This document shows, piece by piece, positions 6,451 through 15,961 of a stretch of 32,366 nt of DNA. The stretch is from Nitrospina sp. (GTDB taxonomy: Bacteria; Nitrospinota; Nitrospinia; Nitrospinales; Nitrospinaceae): assembly GCA_004357365.1 (NCBI GenBank), contig SMVT01000106.1:1-32366 (forward strand), given 5' to 3'. Below the pieces are notes generated by a model, which made no database searches, was not told the origin of the DNA, and worked only from the letters and a program-made list of their open reading frames with translations. Numbering within the stretch: position 1 is the first letter of the stretch; every line of letters begins with the position of its first letter. Position numbers and translations under genes: made by a program.

Positions 6451-8004
6451 TTGACGCCTGATTTCAGGCGCCTTATTGAACCCACCTGGCAAGGGAATCC
6501 GGTTCCCGCTGTTCACCGTTATTTTCTTTCAATCCTCCCCAAGTGCATCGCCGGCATGCCTCACAAACTGACCCTTCAGACCCTGGCGGAAAACCTGATC
6601 CGGGAATCCCGTGAACCGTTTTCGATCGACCAGTATATAGAGGCGATTCAAAAACGCTGGCGCCGCCGGATTGCTCCCGCCACCCTGGACCATCTGAAAC
6701 AAACCTTGGCGAACCATTCTCAGGTGATCGAAATCAACGGCACCAGTTTTCTTCCCTATCAGGCGGTGCTGGACCGGGTGGGCCATATCCCCCTGGAAAT
6801 TCAACTGAGCAAGACGGAATGGCAAAGCAGAACGATGATTCCCGGCCACCGTCTGGTGCCCTTTATTTCACCGGATCTGGAAGAGAACGAACTGACCTTT
6901 CTCGACCCGAACGGCCGCGAAATTCCCAAACGGGAGCAATCCTTTTTCATCGAAGAGGCGATCAATCTGTACCAGTATTCACATGAGAAGCATTTCCCCT
7001 ACCGGATCAAAGTCAACCAGTGGATGCCCGGTAAAAGCACATTGAACCTGACCGTCTGGGATATCCGGGATCTGCTGGCGCAACTGGAGTTTCATCCGGA
7101 GGACCGGCTGAAGGTGCGCCTGGTCGATTATGACCGGGGGATTTATTCGGTCGGCGCCTATCCCGCGGCGATGTGGAGCCAGAACCGGTTGCGGTCGCGC
7201 TCCCTGTACGTGGCGCTCGAGAACGAACTGCTGGCGGGGCTGGACCGGACCGAGGGTATGGCCTTGTCGCTGGAGAAACAAATTCTGCAGGGGTTGTTCC
7301 ATCTGGACGCCGGCCTGTTGCAGGCTCCCGCGTTTTCGCTGACCGGGCTGGTGGAATCGATTCACAACATCACCATTGTGCGCAACGAGGAGGCGGGCGT
7401 GTATTTTGCGCTGGACGGGGATTCGCCGGTCAAACCCTATACCCTGGAAAGTGTCCACCGCACGCCCCAGGGTGGGACCGGATCGCTCCAGGAAATTTTC
7501 GAGGACATGGGGCTGGCGTTCTCCGAACTGGAATTCAAAGCCATCCTGTATTCCATGATGGGGACGGAGGAATTCAATCTGGAAGAAGTGTTCGATTTGT
7601 TGTTCGGGGCGAAGAAGGATGCCTTTTACGACCAGAAACAGCACCAGGCCTTTTACCGGATGTTGCGCAAAATGTTGAATCTCATCTGCGATGAACTCAA
7701 AGGTCCGGAACCGCGGCTGGTTTGCCAGTTGCGCAACAAAATCGTTTATATGAAACTGCGCCTGATCGAAATGCTGCGGTACATCGAAGCCCAGCGGGTG
7801 TGCCTGGAGGATTTGCCCGAAGAAGTCCTGGAGCACATGGCGGACCTGGACGGGTTTTGCCTGGAAGGGTTACATCATTTGTCGGACCGTCCCCACCCGC
7901 CCAATCTCAAAGTCATACACGATTTGCGCTTGGCCCTGCAGATGGTTCAGCCCAATCTGGATTATCTGGAGGAGACGATCTTTGACCGGTTGGGAGTTTA
8001 CTGA
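6451..8004 (+). CDS. Conserved-looking hypothetical protein, 517 aa
   Basis: I do not recognise a family. It is soluble, with no signal peptide or TM segment. Residues about 38-85 (LTLQTLAENLIRE, then EPFSIDQYIEAIQKRW and LDHLKQTLANH) look like a winged-helix/HARE-type helical unit. A mixed alpha/beta middle (about 100-340) follows, with a conserved-looking GHRLVPFISP block, and the C-terminal 170 residues are helical and leucine-rich. The track start is a TTG with only a weak AGAAGAG upstream, and it overlaps a perfect inverted repeat CGCCTGA/TCAGGCG. The first in-frame ATG (6556, MPHKLTLQ) begins right before the first predicted domain but has no clear ribosome site either, so the start is unsettled. 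Its stop overlaps the miaB stop by 7 bases, convergently. Confidence 0.75.
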   Translation: MTPDFRRLIEPTWQGNPVPAVHRYFLSILPKCIAGMPHKLTLQTLAENLIRESREPFSIDQYIEAIQKRWRRRIAPATLDHLKQTLANHSQVIEINGTSFLPYQAVLDRVGHIPLEIQLSKTEWQSRTMIPGHRLVPFISPDLEENELTFLDPNGREIPKREQSFFIEEAINLYQYSHEKHFPYRIKVNQWMPGKSTLNLTVWDIRDLLAQLEFHPEDRLKVRLVDYDRGIYSVGAYPAAMWSQNRLRSRSLYVALENELLAGLDRTEGMALSLEKQILQGLFHLDAGLLQAPAFSLTGLVESIHNITIVRNEEAGVYFALDGDSPVKPYTLESVHRTPQGGTGSLQEIFEDMGLAFSELEFKAILYSMMGTEEFNLEEVFDLLFGAKKDAFYDQKQHQAFYRMLRKMLNLICDELKGPEPRLVCQLRNKIVYMKLRLIEMLRYIEAQRVCLEDLPEEVLEHMADLDGFCLEGLHHLSDRPHPPNLKVIHDLRLALQMVQPNLDYLEETIFDRLGVY

Positions 8005-9329
8005 CCGGCCCAGCTTCCCCGCAACACATGGCCGCTGACCTCCTCGACCCGCACCCGGGCGAGGTCTCCGGGTTTTAAGCGGTCTTCCCCTCCCCGGAAC
8101 ACCACCATCCAGTGGTGCGGGTTTCTGCCTTTGAACGACATGCCCTGGCGCGATGTCCGGCTTTCGATCAACACCTCCACCTCCTCGCCCAGATAGGCCC
8201 GGCTGTTTTCTTCGGTGAGCCGGTTTTGCAGCTGGAGGGTTTGTTGCAGGCGGTCCTGCTTTGCTTCGTAGGGGATATCATCTGGCATCGCCAGTGCCGA
8301 AGTGTTGGGCCGCGGACTGTAGGTGAACATGTAGCTACTGGTGTAGCCCACCTGCTCCATTAACCTCAAGGTGTCCTCAAACTCCGCCGCCGTTTCTCCC
8401 GGAAAACCGACAATAATGTCTGTCGACAGGGTGATATCCGGCACCTCGCTTTTCAGTTGGGCGATCAGGTCCAAGTACCATTCGACGGTATGGCTCCGGC
8501 GCATCATCTGCAGAATGCGGTTGCTCCCGCATTGCACCGGCAGGTGCAGGTGGTTCATGAGGATATCGATGTCGCGGTAGGCCTGAATCAACTCGCCGGT
8601 AAAATCCATCGGATGGCTGGTGACGAAACGCAGGCGCTCCACGCCGGGAATGCCGGCGATGCCGTACAACAGTTCGTGGAAGGCCAACGGTTGTTCCAGC
8701 CCACGCTTGCCGTAGGCATTGACGTTCTGGCCGAGCAGAATGATCTCTTTCGCCCCGCGATCCACCAGCTGGCGGATTTCCGCGTAAATTTCCTCCGCTT
8801 CCCGTGATTTCTCCCGGCCGCGCGTGTAGGGGACCACGCAGAAACTGCAAAACTTGTCGCATCCCTTGATAATGTTCACGAAAGCGCTGGGGCCGGGGTC
8901 CTTGATCAGCGGTTGCTCCGGAATGGAATAGTTTTTCTGCGAGTCAAATTCCGTCCATAAGACCGGGCCCTCCCCCCGATTCACCCGGTCCACCACCTGC
9001 TGGATATGCTCTACCGCGTCGGGGCCGATAATGAAATCCAGGTAGGGCATCCGGTTCATAAGGGCCGATTGCTCCTGTTGGGCCAGACAACCCGCCACCC
9101 CGAGGATCAGGTCGGGATTGTCCTGCTTCAGGGGTTTTAGTCCGCCAAACAGGGAATACACCTTTTGCTCAGCCTTTTCTCTTATCGAACAAGTATTGAC
9201 CAGCACCAGATCAGCGTCTTCCACATGCGGGGTGCGCAGGTACCCGGATTGGAACAGCAAAAGCTCCATCCGGTCGGTATCCGCCACGTTCATCTGGCAT
9301 CCGAAGGTTTCCAAATAGACCTGTTTCAT
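7998..9329 (-). CDS. miaB: tRNA-2-methylthio-N6-dimethylallyladenosine synthase MiaB
   Basis: A 443-residue radical-SAM methylthiotransferase that converts i6A37 to ms2i6A37 in tRNAs reading UNN codons. The three N-terminal cysteines of the UPF0004 domain are at 11 (TFGCQMN), 47 (NTCSIRE) and 81 (AGCLAQ). The radical-SAM cluster CDKFCSFC gives Cys157, 161 and 164 and is followed by VPYTRGREKSR, diagnostic of MiaB rather than MtaB or RimO. The C-terminal 65 residues form a TRAM domain. Length is normal and the gene is complete. It converges with the 517-aa hypothetical gene with a 7-base overlap of the ends. Confidence 0.96.
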   Translation of the reverse strand: MKQVYLETFGCQMNVADTDRMELLLFQSGYLRTPHVEDADLVLVNTCSIREKAEQKVYSLFGGLKPLKQDNPDLILGVAGCLAQQEQSALMNRMPYLDFIIGPDAVEHIQQVVDRVNRGEGPVLWTEFDSQKNYSIPEQPLIKDPGPSAFVNIIKGCDKFCSFCVVPYTRGREKSREAEEIYAEIRQLVDRGAKEIILLGQNVNAYGKRGLEQPLAFHELLYGIAGIPGVERLRFVTSHPMDFTGELIQAYRDIDILMNHLHLPVQCGSNRILQMMRRSHTVEWYLDLIAQLKSEVPDITLSTDIIVGFPGETAAEFEDTLRLMEQVGYTSSYMFTYSPRPNTSALAMPDDIPYEAKQDRLQQTLQLQNRLTEENSRAYLGEEVEVLIESRTSRQGMSFKGRNPHHWMVVFRGGEDRLKPGDLARVRVEEVSGHVLRGSWAGQ

Positions 9330-9985: not shown

Positions 9986-10052
9986 GCCGGGGCCGCACAA
10001 CGCGGCGCCAGATAAGCAGTTTCCTAACATGGAAGAATTCAGGAGTTAATTG

Positions 10053-11132
10053 ATGTTCCTTTCAGCCAAAACACCACTACTGGCAGTAGATATCGGGTCA
10101 AATTCCATCAAGGTGGGCCGGTTGCTGGGGACCCCGGGCAAATTCGAGTTGTCCAATTTTGGAATGATGCCGCTGGATCCCGAATCGGTGGTCGAAGGCG
10201 TGGTGCAGGATGAGGACCACGTGGTCGACGCATTGACCCGCCTGGTGCATGCCGAGAACGTGGACACGCCTTACGCCGTCGCCTCGGTGGCCGGCGAAGC
10301 GGTGATGATCAAGAAGATCAAGGTCCCCATGATGTCCAAGGAAGAGTTGGAGGAGTTCATTCCCCAGGAAGCGGAGCAATACATTCCTTTTGACATCGAC
10401 GATGTGCGAATCGACTTCCAGATTCTGGAAGGCGTGTCCACCATGGAGGAACATGAATTCGAGGAAGAGGAAGATAAGCAGGAGATTCTCCTGGTGGCGG
10501 TCCAGAATGAAATAATCGACAGCCGGTCCAACGTGTTGACTGCAGCGGGGCTCAAGCCGTGCATCATCGACCTGGATGTGTTTGCCATTGTCAATGCCAT
10601 CAGTATTTCCAGAAATCTTCAGGATATGGGATCAGTCGCCCTGATGGATCTGGGTGGCGCGTTCACCCATCTCAACATTCTTATGGACGGCGTGACGTCC
10701 TACACCCGGGACATTCCCATCGGACAGGATGCCTGCACGACCCAACTGATGGCCAAATATGAGATGGAATACAGAGAATCGGAAAGCATTAAAGTGGGAG
10801 CGATTCCCGAAGATGCCAACAAGGAAGAAATCATTGATTTGATCATCGAATCCTACGAACCCATTCTGGAAGAACTGCACAAGTCGTTCGAGTTCTTCAG
10901 CACCACCTCCAACAGCCAGGTCGAGCGGGCCTTTCTGTGCGGGGGCGGGGCTATGATTCCGGGTGTGGATGGACTTTTGTCGGACCGCCTGGGAGTGCCG
11001 GTGGAGATTTTCAATCCCCTCGAGGCGGTTAAATTGGGAGCCAGAAAATTTGATCCCCAAAGTCTGAGCCAAATGGCTCCTATGGCTACCGTGGCACTCG
11101 GTCTGGCCACCCGAAGGTTTGATTACATATGA
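10053..11132 (+). CDS. pilM: Type IV pilus assembly protein PilM
   Basis: An actin-like (FtsA-related) cytoplasmic ATP-binding protein, 359 residues, that binds the cytoplasmic tail of PilN and anchors the inner-membrane alignment complex. Visible motifs are LLAVDIGSNSIKVG at the N-terminus (phosphate 1), the PilM-typical EEFIPQEAEQYIPFD, ALMDLGGAFTHL (phosphate 2), and LCGGGAMIPGVDG (adenosine motif). An acidic loop EFEEEEDKQE follows the third of these strands. I start at the ATG, seven bases after AGGAG; the track adds a preceding TTG codon. The stop overlaps the pilN start as ATGA, indicating translational coupling. Confidence 0.95.
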   Translation: MFLSAKTPLLAVDIGSNSIKVGRLLGTPGKFELSNFGMMPLDPESVVEGVVQDEDHVVDALTRLVHAENVDTPYAVASVAGEAVMIKKIKVPMMSKEELEEFIPQEAEQYIPFDIDDVRIDFQILEGVSTMEEHEFEEEEDKQEILLVAVQNEIIDSRSNVLTAAGLKPCIIDLDVFAIVNAISISRNLQDMGSVALMDLGGAFTHLNILMDGVTSYTRDIPIGQDACTTQLMAKYEMEYRESESIKVGAIPEDANKEEIIDLIIESYEPILEELHKSFEFFSTTSNSQVERAFLCGGGAMIPGVDGLLSDRLGVPVEIFNPLEAVKLGARKFDPQSLSQMAPMATVALGLATRRFDYI

Positions 11133-11764
11133 TTACGATCAATCTATACGATTATAAAACACTCGTCCGCGATGTCGGCATCCAGAAGAACCTGACCTGG
11201 GTGGCCATGGGGGTTACGATTTCCTCCCTCTTGTGCTTCATGATCTGGATATTCCAGAACATCCTGATCGGAGGCCTGGGAAGCGATTTGGCCGAATTGG
11301 AAACCCAGGTGGCCACCGCCACGCCGGACTATAACGTCGTCCAAAAGATGAAAGCCCAGAAAAAGAAATACGGGGAAATTATCACTGGCATCGATAAGTT
11401 GCGGTCGGGCCAGGCGCACACCACGGAATTTCTGGAGGACATGGGCCGGGCGATTCCGGAAGGCGTCTGGCTGAAATCCGTACAGCAGATGGATATGGAA
11501 GAAATCATGAAAGAGAAGATTCCATTTTTGTTTATTTCTTATGACAAAAAAAGCAAAAAAAAGGGGAAGGGAGACAGGTTCATCGAGTTGAAAGGCGTTT
11601 CCCAAAACGATCAACCGATTGTTCACTTCCTCGAGCAATTGAGAGCGTTTCCGTATATTGACGCCGTGGTGCTCCATGAGTCAAGCCGGAAATGGATCGA
11701 AAACGTACCGGTACAGGAATTTTCGATTTATTGTCATTTTCTGAAACCCGAATCTGCTGCCTGA
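11129..11764 (+). CDS. pilN: Type IV pilus inner-membrane protein PilN
   Basis: A 211-residue bitopic protein with a short cytoplasmic tail, one TM segment (about 23-45, WVAMGVTISSLLCFMIWIF) and a periplasmic coiled coil plus ferredoxin-like domain. It pairs with PilO and, through its N-terminal INLxP-type motif, with PilM. Here that motif reads INLYDYK, lacking the usual LP residues, which is a noticeable divergence. A lysine-rich segment KKSKKKGKGD sits in the periplasmic domain. Identification rests on position (pilM-N-O-P-Q order, ATGA overlap with pilM), size and topology more than on sequence signature. Confidence 0.88.
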   Translation: MITINLYDYKTLVRDVGIQKNLTWVAMGVTISSLLCFMIWIFQNILIGGLGSDLAELETQVATATPDYNVVQKMKAQKKKYGEIITGIDKLRSGQAHTTEFLEDMGRAIPEGVWLKSVQQMDMEEIMKEKIPFLFISYDKKSKKKGKGDRFIELKGVSQNDQPIVHFLEQLRAFPYIDAVVLHESSRKWIENVPVQEFSIYCHFLKPESAA

Positions 11765-11774
11765 AGGTGGATGA

Positions 11775-12422
11775 ATGAATCTGAACAAGTTGTTTGACAA
11801 AATACCTTACGGGACCTTCGCCAATTTCACGCCCGCGCATTTTTGGGGGATGGGCGCCGCGCTGGTCGTGGCGATCGTGGTGGCCAGTTATTTTCTGTTG
11901 CTCAGCCCCAATATCGATGAGATGGCGCAACTGGATAATAAAATAGAGGAGGCCAGCAAAAAGCTGGACCTCTACCTGACCGAGGGGGCTAAAAAAGAGG
12001 CGATCACCAAAGAGGTGGCGGCGCTTTCCGGAACCCTGGTGGAGAAAAAACGTCAACTGCCTCTGGCCAGCGAGGTCCCGCAACTGATTCATAAAATCGC
12101 CGACATTGGAGAGCTTCTGGGCCTGGATATTGTCGCCTTTAAACTGGAGCCGGCCAAAGACAATGATTTCTACAAATCCATTCCGCTGTCCGTGACGGTT
12201 GCCGGGAACTATTACCAGACAGCCGGATTTTTCGATGCCCTGCAGAACCTGTTGCGGGTCGTAAACATCGAAAAATTCACAATGGGCCTGAAGCCGGGTT
12301 TCAAGATCGTCACCAATGAGGAAGGCGAACCGGAGCAGGAGCAGATCAAAATCCTGCAAACGGAAATCAGCGCCAGCACGTTTGCTTATATCGAAGGTTC
12401 CGAGTTGTCAGACAAAAAGTAA
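11775..12422 (+). CDS. pilO: Type IV pilus inner-membrane protein PilO
   Basis: A 215-residue bitopic protein with one TM segment (about 24-45, FWGMGAALVVAIVVASYFLLL), then a coiled coil (DEMAQLDNKIEEASKKLDLYL) and a PilO-type ferredoxin-like domain (SVTVAGNYYQTAGFFDALQNLLRVVNIEKF). It would heterodimerise with PilN and dock PilP. The ATG follows a GAAGGTGGA ribosome site, 10 bases after pilN. The PilO signature of a small-residue turn before a phenylalanine-rich helix (YYQTAGFFDAL) supports the call. Confidence 0.9.
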   Translation: MNLNKLFDKIPYGTFANFTPAHFWGMGAALVVAIVVASYFLLLSPNIDEMAQLDNKIEEASKKLDLYLTEGAKKEAITKEVAALSGTLVEKKRQLPLASEVPQLIHKIADIGELLGLDIVAFKLEPAKDNDFYKSIPLSVTVAGNYYQTAGFFDALQNLLRVVNIEKFTMGLKPGFKIVTNEEGEPEQEQIKILQTEISASTFAYIEGSELSDKK

Positions 12423-12427
12423 AAATA

Positions 12428-13987
12428 ATGACCGCCATGAATGGGCACTCAATGAATCAATTAATGAAAATCAATAAAAAGTTCATCGTTGTTCTGGCGA
12501 TCGGGATGTGGGTTGCCACCCATAGCCTGTGGGGTGCGGATGCGTGGGCCAAGGCCAGCTCGAAAACCAAGCGAAGCCTGTCTCAAGAGTTGTATAACGT
12601 CGGTGGATTTGGCCGGGAAAAGCGAATCTTGTCCAAAAAAAGAGTGACCCCCAACATGCTTACCCAGCCGAGAATCCTGCGCGCTTTGGGAATGTCCAAC
12701 GAGCATGTGGCACTGGTCAATGATGTTTACAAACGTACGTTCAAGGCGAGTGACTTTTACAGTAAGAAATTAAAGCAGATTCGAAATAATTATAATCGCC
12801 GCCACATCACACAGAGCATCCGGTTTTTCCGGTCCGCCGTAGGGCGGAAATTTGTTCGCCTCAACGCCCAGAAATTGACCAAAAGCCAGAGGGCATACCA
12901 TAACTTTTTAAACAAAGTTGTTAAAAAGATGCCTAAAAATAAGCGCCTTCAACTTTTTGATCAGTTCGAGCGGGCCGTGAACGGAGTCGACCAGCTGTTC
13001 GATTACCAGAGCTCCATTCTGCGCCTGACCAACCCGGTGAATCGGCAGTTCAATGCCCCTCATGCGGATGTCCTGGTCAACCGGTTGCGGTCGGAACTCA
13101 GGGAGCAATTCCGCTCTTGGATGATACTGCGGTATATGTTCGATTACCAGTCGCTGTCCAACCGTGAACTCAAAAAACTGGTGGCTTTTTTCCGGTCTCC
13201 TGCAGGCCAATGGTTCAACAGTGTGGACCATAAGGGGAACCTCGCCGGGTTTGCCACCATCAATCGGAAAGCTCTGAGACGAATGGAAAAAATTCTCCGG
13301 GTTTTGGAATCCGGGCGCCAGGATATCCAGACCACCAAAGTGGTGTTTGCGCCCGGTCTTCGGTATATGTTTTCTGAGAAGCGCGATCCGTTTGATCCCC
13401 TGATCGTTCCTGAGGAAGAGAAAAAGAAGAAAAAAGGGAAGAGAGCGCCCGGCGCCGCGCCTAAGCCGAAAGACGGTAAACCCACGCAGTCGGCCGTGGT
13501 GGTCCTGGCAACCAAAATCGACGGCCTGCCGGCTATTCCTTTTGAATTGTACCGGAGAATCAAGGAAAGCAACCCGCGGCTGTATTCGGACCTGGAATAC
13601 TACGGAGCGCTGTTCAGAAACAAAAGAGGCCTGCAAGGTATGAAAATGTCCGAGCTTGAGGAAGAAATCAAGCAGTACAACAAATTGATCAATAGAGCAC
13701 GCGAGGAAACCGAACTGTTGGTGCAAACACCGTTGCAGTCCCGTTTTGGCCAATTGAGGCTCGCCGGAGTGATCTGGGATGAACAGGAAACCGTGGGTCT
13801 GATTCAAACTCCGGATGGTAAGGGCCATACCATCCGCGTGGGATCCTTTGTCGGCCCGGATTTCGGCGTGGTTCAATCCATCGGGCTGGACCGGGTGGTC
13901 GTGCTGGAACAGCTTCGAAAATATGATGGAAAAATTATTACACAAACACGATTTATTGAATTTCCCAAACCAGACGAAGAGGAGTGA
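12428..13987 (+). CDS. pilP: Extended PilP: secreted DUF2059-like double repeat plus C-terminal PilP domain
   Basis: A 519-residue protein in the pilP position of pilMNOPQ, about three times the usual PilP length (about 175). A signal peptide lies within residues 14-40. Two regions then carry matching motifs, RFFRSAVGRKF (132-142) and AFFRSPAGQWF (253-263), resembling the FYxSpxG signature of DUF2059. RDPFDPL (319-325) is the PilP-type motif, but a lysine/proline linker and a coiled-coil segment (about 330-435) separate it from the C-terminal PilP beta-domain (443-512: LAGVIWDEQETVGLIQTPDG, then VGSFVGPDFGVVQSIG and VVVLEQ). There is no terminal-lipid cysteine near the start, unlike many PilPs. 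Four in-frame ATGs (residues 1, 4, 9, 13) lack a clear ribosome site, so the start is uncertain. Linking the inner-membrane PilNO to the PilQ secretin is its expected role; the N-terminal half has no known function. Confidence 0.85.
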   Translation: MTAMNGHSMNQLMKINKKFIVVLAIGMWVATHSLWGADAWAKASSKTKRSLSQELYNVGGFGREKRILSKKRVTPNMLTQPRILRALGMSNEHVALVNDVYKRTFKASDFYSKKLKQIRNNYNRRHITQSIRFFRSAVGRKFVRLNAQKLTKSQRAYHNFLNKVVKKMPKNKRLQLFDQFERAVNGVDQLFDYQSSILRLTNPVNRQFNAPHADVLVNRLRSELREQFRSWMILRYMFDYQSLSNRELKKLVAFFRSPAGQWFNSVDHKGNLAGFATINRKALRRMEKILRVLESGRQDIQTTKVVFAPGLRYMFSEKRDPFDPLIVPEEEKKKKKGKRAPGAAPKPKDGKPTQSAVVVLATKIDGLPAIPFELYRRIKESNPRLYSDLEYYGALFRNKRGLQGMKMSELEEEIKQYNKLINRAREETELLVQTPLQSRFGQLRLAGVIWDEQETVGLIQTPDGKGHTIRVGSFVGPDFGVVQSIGLDRVVVLEQLRKYDGKIITQTRFIEFPKPDEEE

Positions 13988-13996
13988 GGACGTATC

Positions 13997-15961
13997 GTGA
14001 ATACACCAATTAAAAGTCAATTCATGTTTGGTTTGATTGCCATAATCCTCGGAGCGGGTCTGGTTCTTTCAACTGTTTATGGTGCCCAGGCGGACACCGG
14101 CTCAGGGAAGACCGCCCAATCTGCAATTGGAAACAAGGCGGTCGCCAAAAAATCGATTCAAATCATCCCGGCCAAGGGCAGTATGTCGCAAAGAATGCTG
14201 ATGGCGCAGGCGGCGGCAGACACGCCTGCCGGAACGCTGTCCCGCATTATCGATTTGCAGACCGCGCAGGAGAACGGCGAGGTTTCCATTCGGTTAAGGG
14301 CCTCACAGGGTTTGGAATACACCGCGTTCAAACTGGTGGATCCATTGCGTTTGGTGCTCGATTTCCCCAATATGGAAAAAGGTGAATTGAGCGGGATCAT
14401 GGAAGTGAATCAGGGCGTGGTCAATACCATCAAGCCTCTCTATTTTGAAGAAGCGAAGGTGTTGCGGTTGGAAATCGGGCTCAATAAAGCCGCCTCTTAC
14501 GAAATCCTCCGCCCCAGTTCCTACGAGATGGTAATTCGACTGAAAGACACCAGCGCGCCGGTCCTGGAAGCGCAGGCGCCGCCGGAACAACCGGACGCCG
14601 CTCCCGGACCGGAACCCATGGCGATGGCCCAAAGCGAACCGGCCACCGAACAGGACCTCCCGTTGGGAAGCAATGCCGCGGAGATGGATTCCTGTGCGCC
14701 CCTGTTGGGAGGTGTGAAAGACAGCTTCTCGATGGATTTCCAAAACGCCAATATCAAAAACATCTTCCGCATTATTGCGGAAGTCAGCGGATTCAACCTG
14801 GTGCTGTCTCCGGATGTCGCCGGCGAGGTGAACATCCGCCTGATCGATGTTCCGTGGAACCAGGCGTTTGAAATCATCCTGGAAAACAACGCTCTGGGAC
14901 GGTTGTGCGAAGGCAACATCATCCGCATCGTTCCCAATGCAACCCTGTTGGCCGCGCAGGTGGCCGAACCGTTGATCACGGAGATGATTCGGATCAATTA
15001 TGCCGATATCGCCGAAATGATCAAAAACCTGCAGGGGTTGAAGAGTCCCAGAGGCAGCATCATCGCCGATGTCCGGACCAATACCCTGATCTTGACCGAT
15101 ATTCCGGACAAAGTGGAAGAGATGATCTCGGTGATCAAAACCCTGGACGTGAGAACCCCGCAGGTAATGATCGAAGCCAAAATTATTGAAGTGGTAAGAG
15201 GTTATTCTCAGGAAATTGGAATTGAGTGGGGCTTCTTTACGGAAAGAGTTAATTTTGGTAGAACCGACGGTTTCCCCGCTGTCATTACGACGGGTGGCGA
15301 CCGTTTTGTCCGATTCCAGGACGATCAGGATGTTATTGACAATGGTGGACGCGATCCCGGGTTTGTTGTGGATTTGGGCACCGCCGGCACGCCCGCGGGT
15401 CAATTCGGTATCCTGCTTTCAACCTTTAATTCGGACCATATGTTGGACATCCAATTGGAAGCTTTGGAAGAGCAGGGTAAATCCCGGACTATCGCCAATC
15501 CCAAAATCACCACCCTGGATAACAAAGAAGCCAAAATCCAGAGTGGCCAGCGGATTCCCGTGCAGACGTCGTCGGCCAACGAAGGCACCAAGGTGCAGTT
15601 CGTGGATGCCAACCTGGAACTCAGGGTGACGCCGCATATCACTGCGGATGAGCACATCTATATGAAAATCCTCGCCACCCAGAACAACGCCGACTTCGGT
15701 AATACTGTTCTCGGTATCCCGACCATCATCACCAAGGAAGCCTCTACGGAAGTTCTGGTGGCCAACGGCGCCACCACGGTGTTGGGCGGGCTCTATCAGA
15801 AAGCGACCTCGGAAAGTAGTAGAAGTGTCCCTTTCTTTTCCGATATTCCCATCATCGGTTATCTGTTCAAAAACCGGGCCGAGACCGACGACATTTCCGA
15901 ATTGCTGATTTTCGTGACTCCCACCATCGTGAGGAGTGATATGTCGTTCTCCAAAAGATGA
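13997..15961 (+). CDS. pilQ: Type IV pilus secretin PilQ
   Basis: The outer-membrane pore through which the pilus passes, 654 residues. Domains: signal peptide (1-30, ending near VYGAQA); a single AMIN domain (about 84-183) that would bind peptidoglycan; a proline-rich linker (190-220); an STN-like domain (243-315, FSMDFQNANIKNIFRIIAEVSG); one secretin N/NolW domain (327-388); and the secretin beta-barrel core (395-645) with the family ending VPFFSDIPIIGYLF and LLIFVTPTIV. Many PilQs have two or more AMIN domains; here I see one. It starts with GTG, six bases after GAGGA, which overlaps the pilP stop. The stop overlaps aroB as ATGA. Confidence 0.95.
   Translation: MNTPIKSQFMFGLIAIILGAGLVLSTVYGAQADTGSGKTAQSAIGNKAVAKKSIQIIPAKGSMSQRMLMAQAAADTPAGTLSRIIDLQTAQENGEVSIRLRASQGLEYTAFKLVDPLRLVLDFPNMEKGELSGIMEVNQGVVNTIKPLYFEEAKVLRLEIGLNKAASYEILRPSSYEMVIRLKDTSAPVLEAQAPPEQPDAAPGPEPMAMAQSEPATEQDLPLGSNAAEMDSCAPLLGGVKDSFSMDFQNANIKNIFRIIAEVSGFNLVLSPDVAGEVNIRLIDVPWNQAFEIILENNALGRLCEGNIIRIVPNATLLAAQVAEPLITEMIRINYADIAEMIKNLQGLKSPRGSIIADVRTNTLILTDIPDKVEEMISVIKTLDVRTPQVMIEAKIIEVVRGYSQEIGIEWGFFTERVNFGRTDGFPAVITTGGDRFVRFQDDQDVIDNGGRDPGFVVDLGTAGTPAGQFGILLSTFNSDHMLDIQLEALEEQGKSRTIANPKITTLDNKEAKIQSGQRIPVQTSSANEGTKVQFVDANLELRVTPHITADEHIYMKILATQNNADFGNTVLGIPTIITKEASTEVLVANGATTVLGGLYQKATSESSRSVPFFSDIPIIGYLFKNRAETDDISELLIFVTPTIVRSDMSFSKR

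Follow-up and report, generated by a model that had tools for sequence, protein, structure and literature searches.

PilP links the inner-membrane motor platform of the pilus machine with the outer-membrane secretin, and how this link copes with varied periplasm width and with passage of the pilus is at issue. In other bacteria, PilP contacts PilN and PilO through its unstructured tail and the PilQ N0 domain through its beta-domain (PMC5285504, PMC5805733), the latter contact being described also in PMC3441751. An enlarged periplasmic spacer in the pilP slot is known from Thermus, where PilW comprises 292 residues and its shortening by 54 residues brought the inner-membrane density closer to PilQ by about 7 nm (PMC13039148). 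Here, a 32,366-nucleotide stretch of Nitrospina sp. DNA (assembly GCA_004357365.1, contig SMVT01000106.1; hereafter the window) was analysed, in which the pilP slot encodes a protein of 519 residues combining a predicted DUF2059-like double repeat, an RDPF motif, a helical insert and a PilP beta-domain. The enlarged PilP link is real and is conserved in one order of the phylum Nitrospinota. Within the literature collection searched, PilP is not mentioned together with Nitrospina or Nitrospinota, and no paper makes a relevant connection between DUF2059 and PilP.

Architecture of the enlarged PilP

The gene is a single uninterrupted open reading frame (ORF) on the forward strand (12428-13987) with an ATG start and no internal stop, positioned between pilO and pilQ in the arrangement pilM-pilN-pilO-pilP-pilQ, which is followed by aroB. 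The Pfam PilP family matches residues 441-508 (E=1.9e-10; 41.3 bits versus a curated cut-off of 25.6), as it does in 20 of 20 relatives, and a profile of the beta-domain matches the solved PilP domains 2ivw (E=1.4e-11), 4av2, 3jc8, 2lc4 and 2y4x. This match and the pilO/pilQ slot confirm the PilP identity given in the initial annotation. Among 20 aligned PilPs of the order, the invariant residues are concentrated in RDPF and the beta-domain. A KKKK stretch lies at residue 332 and the beta-domain starts with TPLQ at residue 434, giving a spacing of about 112 residues between RDPF and the beta-domain, in agreement with the 110 or so proposed initially. The insert carries the conserved pattern LPxIPxExYxxIKExDPxLYxDLEYYGxLF, the last Phe of which (F396) is invariant in the order alignment. 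Its earlier description as a coiled coil was not borne out, as the conserved pattern resembles a compact helical segment and three helices are placed near residues 372-428 in a model of low confidence. AlphaFold2 (AF2) modelling of residues 39-319 and 312-519 from two-row alignments yielded predicted local distance difference test (pLDDT) scores of 38.5 and 41.5, at which secondary structure only is readable.

The N-terminal module is regarded as DUF2059-like, probably with two diverged copies of the repeat. Pfam DUF2059 matches the whole protein over two stretches (E=4.4e-8; 33.4 bits versus a curated 23.6), placing both families above their curated cut-offs in the hidden Markov model searches, and the repeats taken apart score 24.0 bits for repeat 2 and 17.1 bits for repeat 1. 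The family is matched by 18 of the 19 aligned modules of the order (best E-value 3.4e-11); when the repeats of these modules were scored apart, E<=0.01 was reached by repeat 1 in 14/19 and by repeat 2 in 6/19. Repeat 1 and repeat 2 are alike by hhalign (E=6.1e-5 over 36 columns), and the double repeat suspected from the outset is upheld. The two FFRSxxG motifs (Table 1) fall within the intervals first assigned to them, 132-142 and 253-263, and among 200,000 shuffles of the protein 92 contained one copy and none contained two. Profile matches of the module to solved DUF2059 structures are weak (6f03, E=0.0066; 2x3o and 3oao, E=0.057), while its cytochrome and ubiquitin matches in the PDB were rejected as chance-level. 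An NCBIfam search returned no meaningful family, and a plasmid search with the 519-residue protein gave no match.

The true start of the protein may be Met9, and the probable Sec signal peptide lacks a lipobox. The absence of a lipid-anchor cysteine was correctly observed, there being no cysteines in the entire protein, but its peculiarity to this protein did not hold. None of 20 order PilPs examined has a lipobox, none is visible in the PilPs of families f7 and f8 and of three of the five f9 genomes, and lipobox loss as a special mark of the fusion was rejected, since most of the class is without one. Because the short PilPs of the class also lack it, the anchor cysteine is regarded as a frequent trait of PilP and not as one that defines it; the PilP assignment is based on the beta-domain and on the position of the gene in the operon. 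Processing of the enlarged PilP by signal peptidase I, without lipidation, would be expected.

Distribution and order of the changes in Nitrospinota

In a survey of 77 Nitrospinota genomes, the C-terminal PilP part was found in 55, as was Pfam PilP, and the N-terminal module in 41, all of one order (families f1, f2 and f4). Both parts lie in a single frame of about 490-566 residues in 40 of these 41, and in G046 the gene is split across contig ends. The fusion is present in 41 of the 44 order genomes that have a PilP other than the chimaeras described below; the PilPs without the module are those of G013 (f3, 278 residues) and of G054 and G056 (genus g9, 245-250 residues). Only a chimaera, and no other PilP, was found in G030 of the same order. 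A genome-wide contig scan with a single-sequence query had one match, an 86%-identical protein in a Nitrospinota metagenome-assembled genome. The upstream pilMNO and downstream pilQ genes are conserved in 18/18 fusion loci and in loci L124, L128 and L129. No second ordinary PilP was found in the single-contig genomes G008, G017 and G031, the second match in G017 being a chimaera, and therefore the enlarged protein very probably does the job of PilP. We are nearly certain that it represents a functional PilP carrying a genuine added module.

Families f8 and f9 of the same class have the PilP beta-domain without the insert, and PilP is short in f8 and in three of the five f9 genomes; in G071 and G072 (f9) the beta-domain stands behind a different N-terminal domain following a lipobox-like cysteine. 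The f7 PilPs (223-229 residues) contain the insert and lack the module. A tree of PilM, PilN, PilO and PilQ gives two state changes, read as one gain of the module inside the order after f3 and one loss in g9, with the exact place of G013 not firm because it forms a long branch. Judged from this distribution, the insert of about 70 residues, common to f6, f7 and the window's order, came first, and the DUF2059 module second, inside the order. Stand-alone DUF2059 proteins of the phylum are confined to the same order as the fusion, so that a donor of the module from within the lineage is plausible. Other enlarged forms were also seen. The f6 proteins in the pilP slot (867-890 residues; L112:8459-11128(-) and L113:7928-10528(-)) contain the insert and the PilP beta-domain behind a different N-terminus of 700 residues, made up of about 600 residues that match DUF3352 in one of the two genomes and a Glu/Pro-rich stretch. 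The f9 PilPs at L118:5233-6375(+) and L119:722-1831(+) have an extra N-terminal domain of about 200 residues, without a Pfam match, behind a lipobox-like cysteine.

Eight genomes carry, as a second gene, a chimaera in which secretin N-terminal domains without the barrel are fused to the insert and PilP beta-domain without RDPF, and a partial copy is present in G030. The front of the chimaera is AMIN-N0-N1 in G017, G021 and G052 and two N0 copies in G013, G036, G048, G049 and G050. The gene lies between pilP and pilQ in g8 and f3 and is unlinked to pil genes in g4. A single clade for all chimaeras was rejected by the approximately unbiased (AU) test for the PilP-half tree (p=0.0021) and also for the N0-half tree (p=0.0165), and the g4 chimaeras group with g4 PilP in the former and with g4/g14 PilQ in the latter. 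Barring a distortion of the trees by gene conversion, the fusion therefore arose from genes of the lineage itself on at least two independent occasions. As the PilP beta-domain is known to bind N0, a chain with both domains could act as a decoy, be built into a mixed ring as a subunit, or serve as an adaptor in series. The accompaniment of the beta-domain by the insert in the absence of RDPF suggests that insert and beta-domain function as a single unit, with RDPF being part of the docking end. Genus g2 has two tandem pilQ genes after pilP in L038, L040 and L042 (genomes G011, G008 and G010), the second matching from the N0 domain on with no AMIN match; two overlapping PilQ frames in L037 (G009) are possibly also tandem pilQ genes.

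In the window, pilQ has Pfam matches to Secretin (E=4.5e-49), Secretin_N (E=1.9e-15) and AMIN (E=3.3e-6), and to type_II_gspD_N0 at E=2.2e-5, under that family's cut-off. PilT-type ATPases are encoded in the window's genome (C34; 383 and 409 residues). Further upstream in the window, a 517-residue ORF (6451-8004, +) has no Pfam match at E<=1e-4 and adjoins a 443-residue ORF (7998-9329, -) whose sequence resembles a radical-SAM methylthiotransferase.

Table 1. Coordinates of the window's pil genes, of the segments of the enlarged PilP and of the N0-PilP chimaeras
Feature	Residues	Position	Strand	Remark
Enlarged pilP	519 aa	12428-13987	+	DUF2059-like x2 / RDPF / insert / PilP beta-domain
Probable Sec signal peptide	1-41	12428-12550	+	AWA cleavage motif; from sequence
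N-terminal module, two DUF2059-like repeats	48-312	12569-13363	+	Pfam DUF2059
First FFRSxxG motif	133-139	12824-12844	+	
Second FFRSxxG motif	254-260	13187-13207	+	
RDPF motif	319-322	13382-13393	+	Invariant in 20/20 aligned order PilPs
Variable Lys/Pro-rich linker	325-360	13400-13507	+	Alignment
Conserved helical insert	361-430	13508-13717	+	Also in f6, f7 and N0-PilP chimaeras
PilP beta-domain (HR-type)	434-513	13727-13966	+	Pfam PilP
pilM		10050-11132	+	Pfam PilM_2 E=4.3e-64
pilN		11129-11764	+	Pfam PilN E=3.9e-11
Order-specific Lys-rich loop, PilN periplasmic domain	about 121-150	11489-11578	+	Alignment of 33 PilN
pilO		11775-12422	+	Pfam PilO E=2.3e-21
pilQ secretin		13997-15961	+	AMIN, N0, N1; expected partner of PilP beta-domain
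Chimaera		L043:8963-10546	+	
Chimaera		L047:6835-8478	-	
Chimaera		L124:8881-10524	+	
Chimaera		L048:7803-9326	+	
Chimaera		L050:3432-4754	+	
Chimaera		L125:1204-2505	+	
Chimaera		L126:6281-7705	+	
Chimaera		L127:4691-6133	-	

Possible roles of the added module

We propose that PilP was altered in two steps within Nitrospinota, in a type IVa pilus machine that is ordinary in its other parts. A helical segment of about 70 residues entered first, between RDPF and the PilQ-binding beta-domain, where it may add reach or support beside the N0 ring, and a secreted double DUF2059-like helical module would then have replaced the short flexible tail before RDPF. This module may dock on the periplasmic domains of PilN and PilO (or on the cell wall) and serve as a thicker, possibly longer strut. 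The best explanation, to which we give about an even chance, is that the enlarged PilP is, by analogy with Thermus PilW, a bridge whose lipid-anchored PilN/PilO-binding tail has become such a folded module, and the changed geometry of the PilNO-PilQ bridge suggested initially is plausible. Docking on PilN/PilO, a guess, is weakly favoured by the order-specific Lys-rich loop of PilN, which in the PilN alignment (f8 left out) is absent in f6, f7 and f9, short in f3 and longer in the other members of the order. A Lys-rich linker is also found in PilP, paralleling this loop.

Several points weigh against the strut. Genus g9 keeps the Lys-rich PilN loop though the module is lost, which argues against strict coupling of loop and module. 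The PilPs of g9 and G013 manage without the module, so that PilP can function in the order when it is missing. The contact between the module and PilN/PilO is conjectural. The AF2 models are unusable at the pLDDT scores given above. Finally, the similarity of the module to the stand-alone DUF2059 proteins of the order is too weak (hhalign E=0.0093, probability 4%) to establish them as its donor.

The module may alternatively have a separate periplasmic task, such as wall binding or, like GspB/OutB in the case of GspD, helping PilQ to reach its outer-membrane site, while the FPPGxRYLFxxKRDPF stretch still docks on PilN/PilO. All PilPs of the order retain the RDPF stretch, including those without the module, f6 and two genera of f9 have unrelated N-terminal modules at this position, and the HR-type domain of GspB/OutB with its wall-binding extension can act as a secretin scaffold (PMC9239104). 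However, Pfam revealed no known wall-binding family in the module, and PilQ already has AMIN, a wall-binding domain in P. aeruginosa PilQ; we consider this explanation possible but somewhat unlikely. Rather unlikely is a broader form of the bridge, a modular coupler between PilP and PilQ in which folded N-terminal modules would stand where PilP had its flexible tail and, in some lineages, the chimaeras would be in-series adaptors lengthening the bridge stepwise, the chimaera N0 taking the PilP beta-domain and the chimaera beta-domain taking PilQ N0. A chance acquisition of the module, tolerated although it does nothing itself, would agree with its loss in g9 without loss of the operon, its absence in G013 and its fast evolution (17-27% identity to the window in more distant families), but its presence in frame, at full length and with invariant residues across three families and 41 genomes makes a neutral fusion improbable. 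An artefact in which a frameshift or an assembly error fused two genes, for which the fragmented, 78%-complete assembly of the window's genome might speak and which the initial annotation had named as a concern, is ruled out for practical purposes, as related genomes show the same fusion in 41 cases and not two separate genes, and the frame is equally unbroken in genomes assembled as single contigs and in relatives of 86-87% identity.

Comparison with known systems

A lineage with stepwise, dated enlargement of PilP and repeated fusions of its contact domains offers natural variants to tell apart tether, strut and spacer models of the link between motor platform and secretin. The repeated N0-PilP fusions agree with the known contact between N0 and the beta-domain from an independent, evolutionary side. 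The enlarged PilP shares with the PilP of Proteobacteria (PF04351; 2ivw, 2lc4, 2y4x, 4av2, 3jc8) the operon slot, the beta-domain and an RDPF-type motif ahead of it, whereas the latter is a lipoprotein of about 175 residues with an unstructured PilN/PilO-binding tail and has neither a DUF2059 module nor a helical insert. DUF2059 proteins (PF09832; 2x3o/3oao PA0856, 6f03 BPSL2520) are likewise secreted and helical with an FxxSPxG-like motif, but stand alone, have no PilP domain and are of unknown function. GspC and GspB/OutB of type II secretion resemble the enlarged PilP in having extra modules added, but are anchored by a transmembrane helix, and the enlarged PilP matches Pfam T2SSC (GspC) weakly, below the cut-off (18.1 bits versus a curated 27). 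PilW of Thermus thermophilus, compared by description only, likewise occupies the pilP slot in enlarged form, ends in an HR-type domain and has a proposed role as PilQ-PilMNO bridge, but its 292 residues include a Gly/Pro-rich flexible stretch, and the available part of its description mentions no DUF2059 module (PMC13039148).
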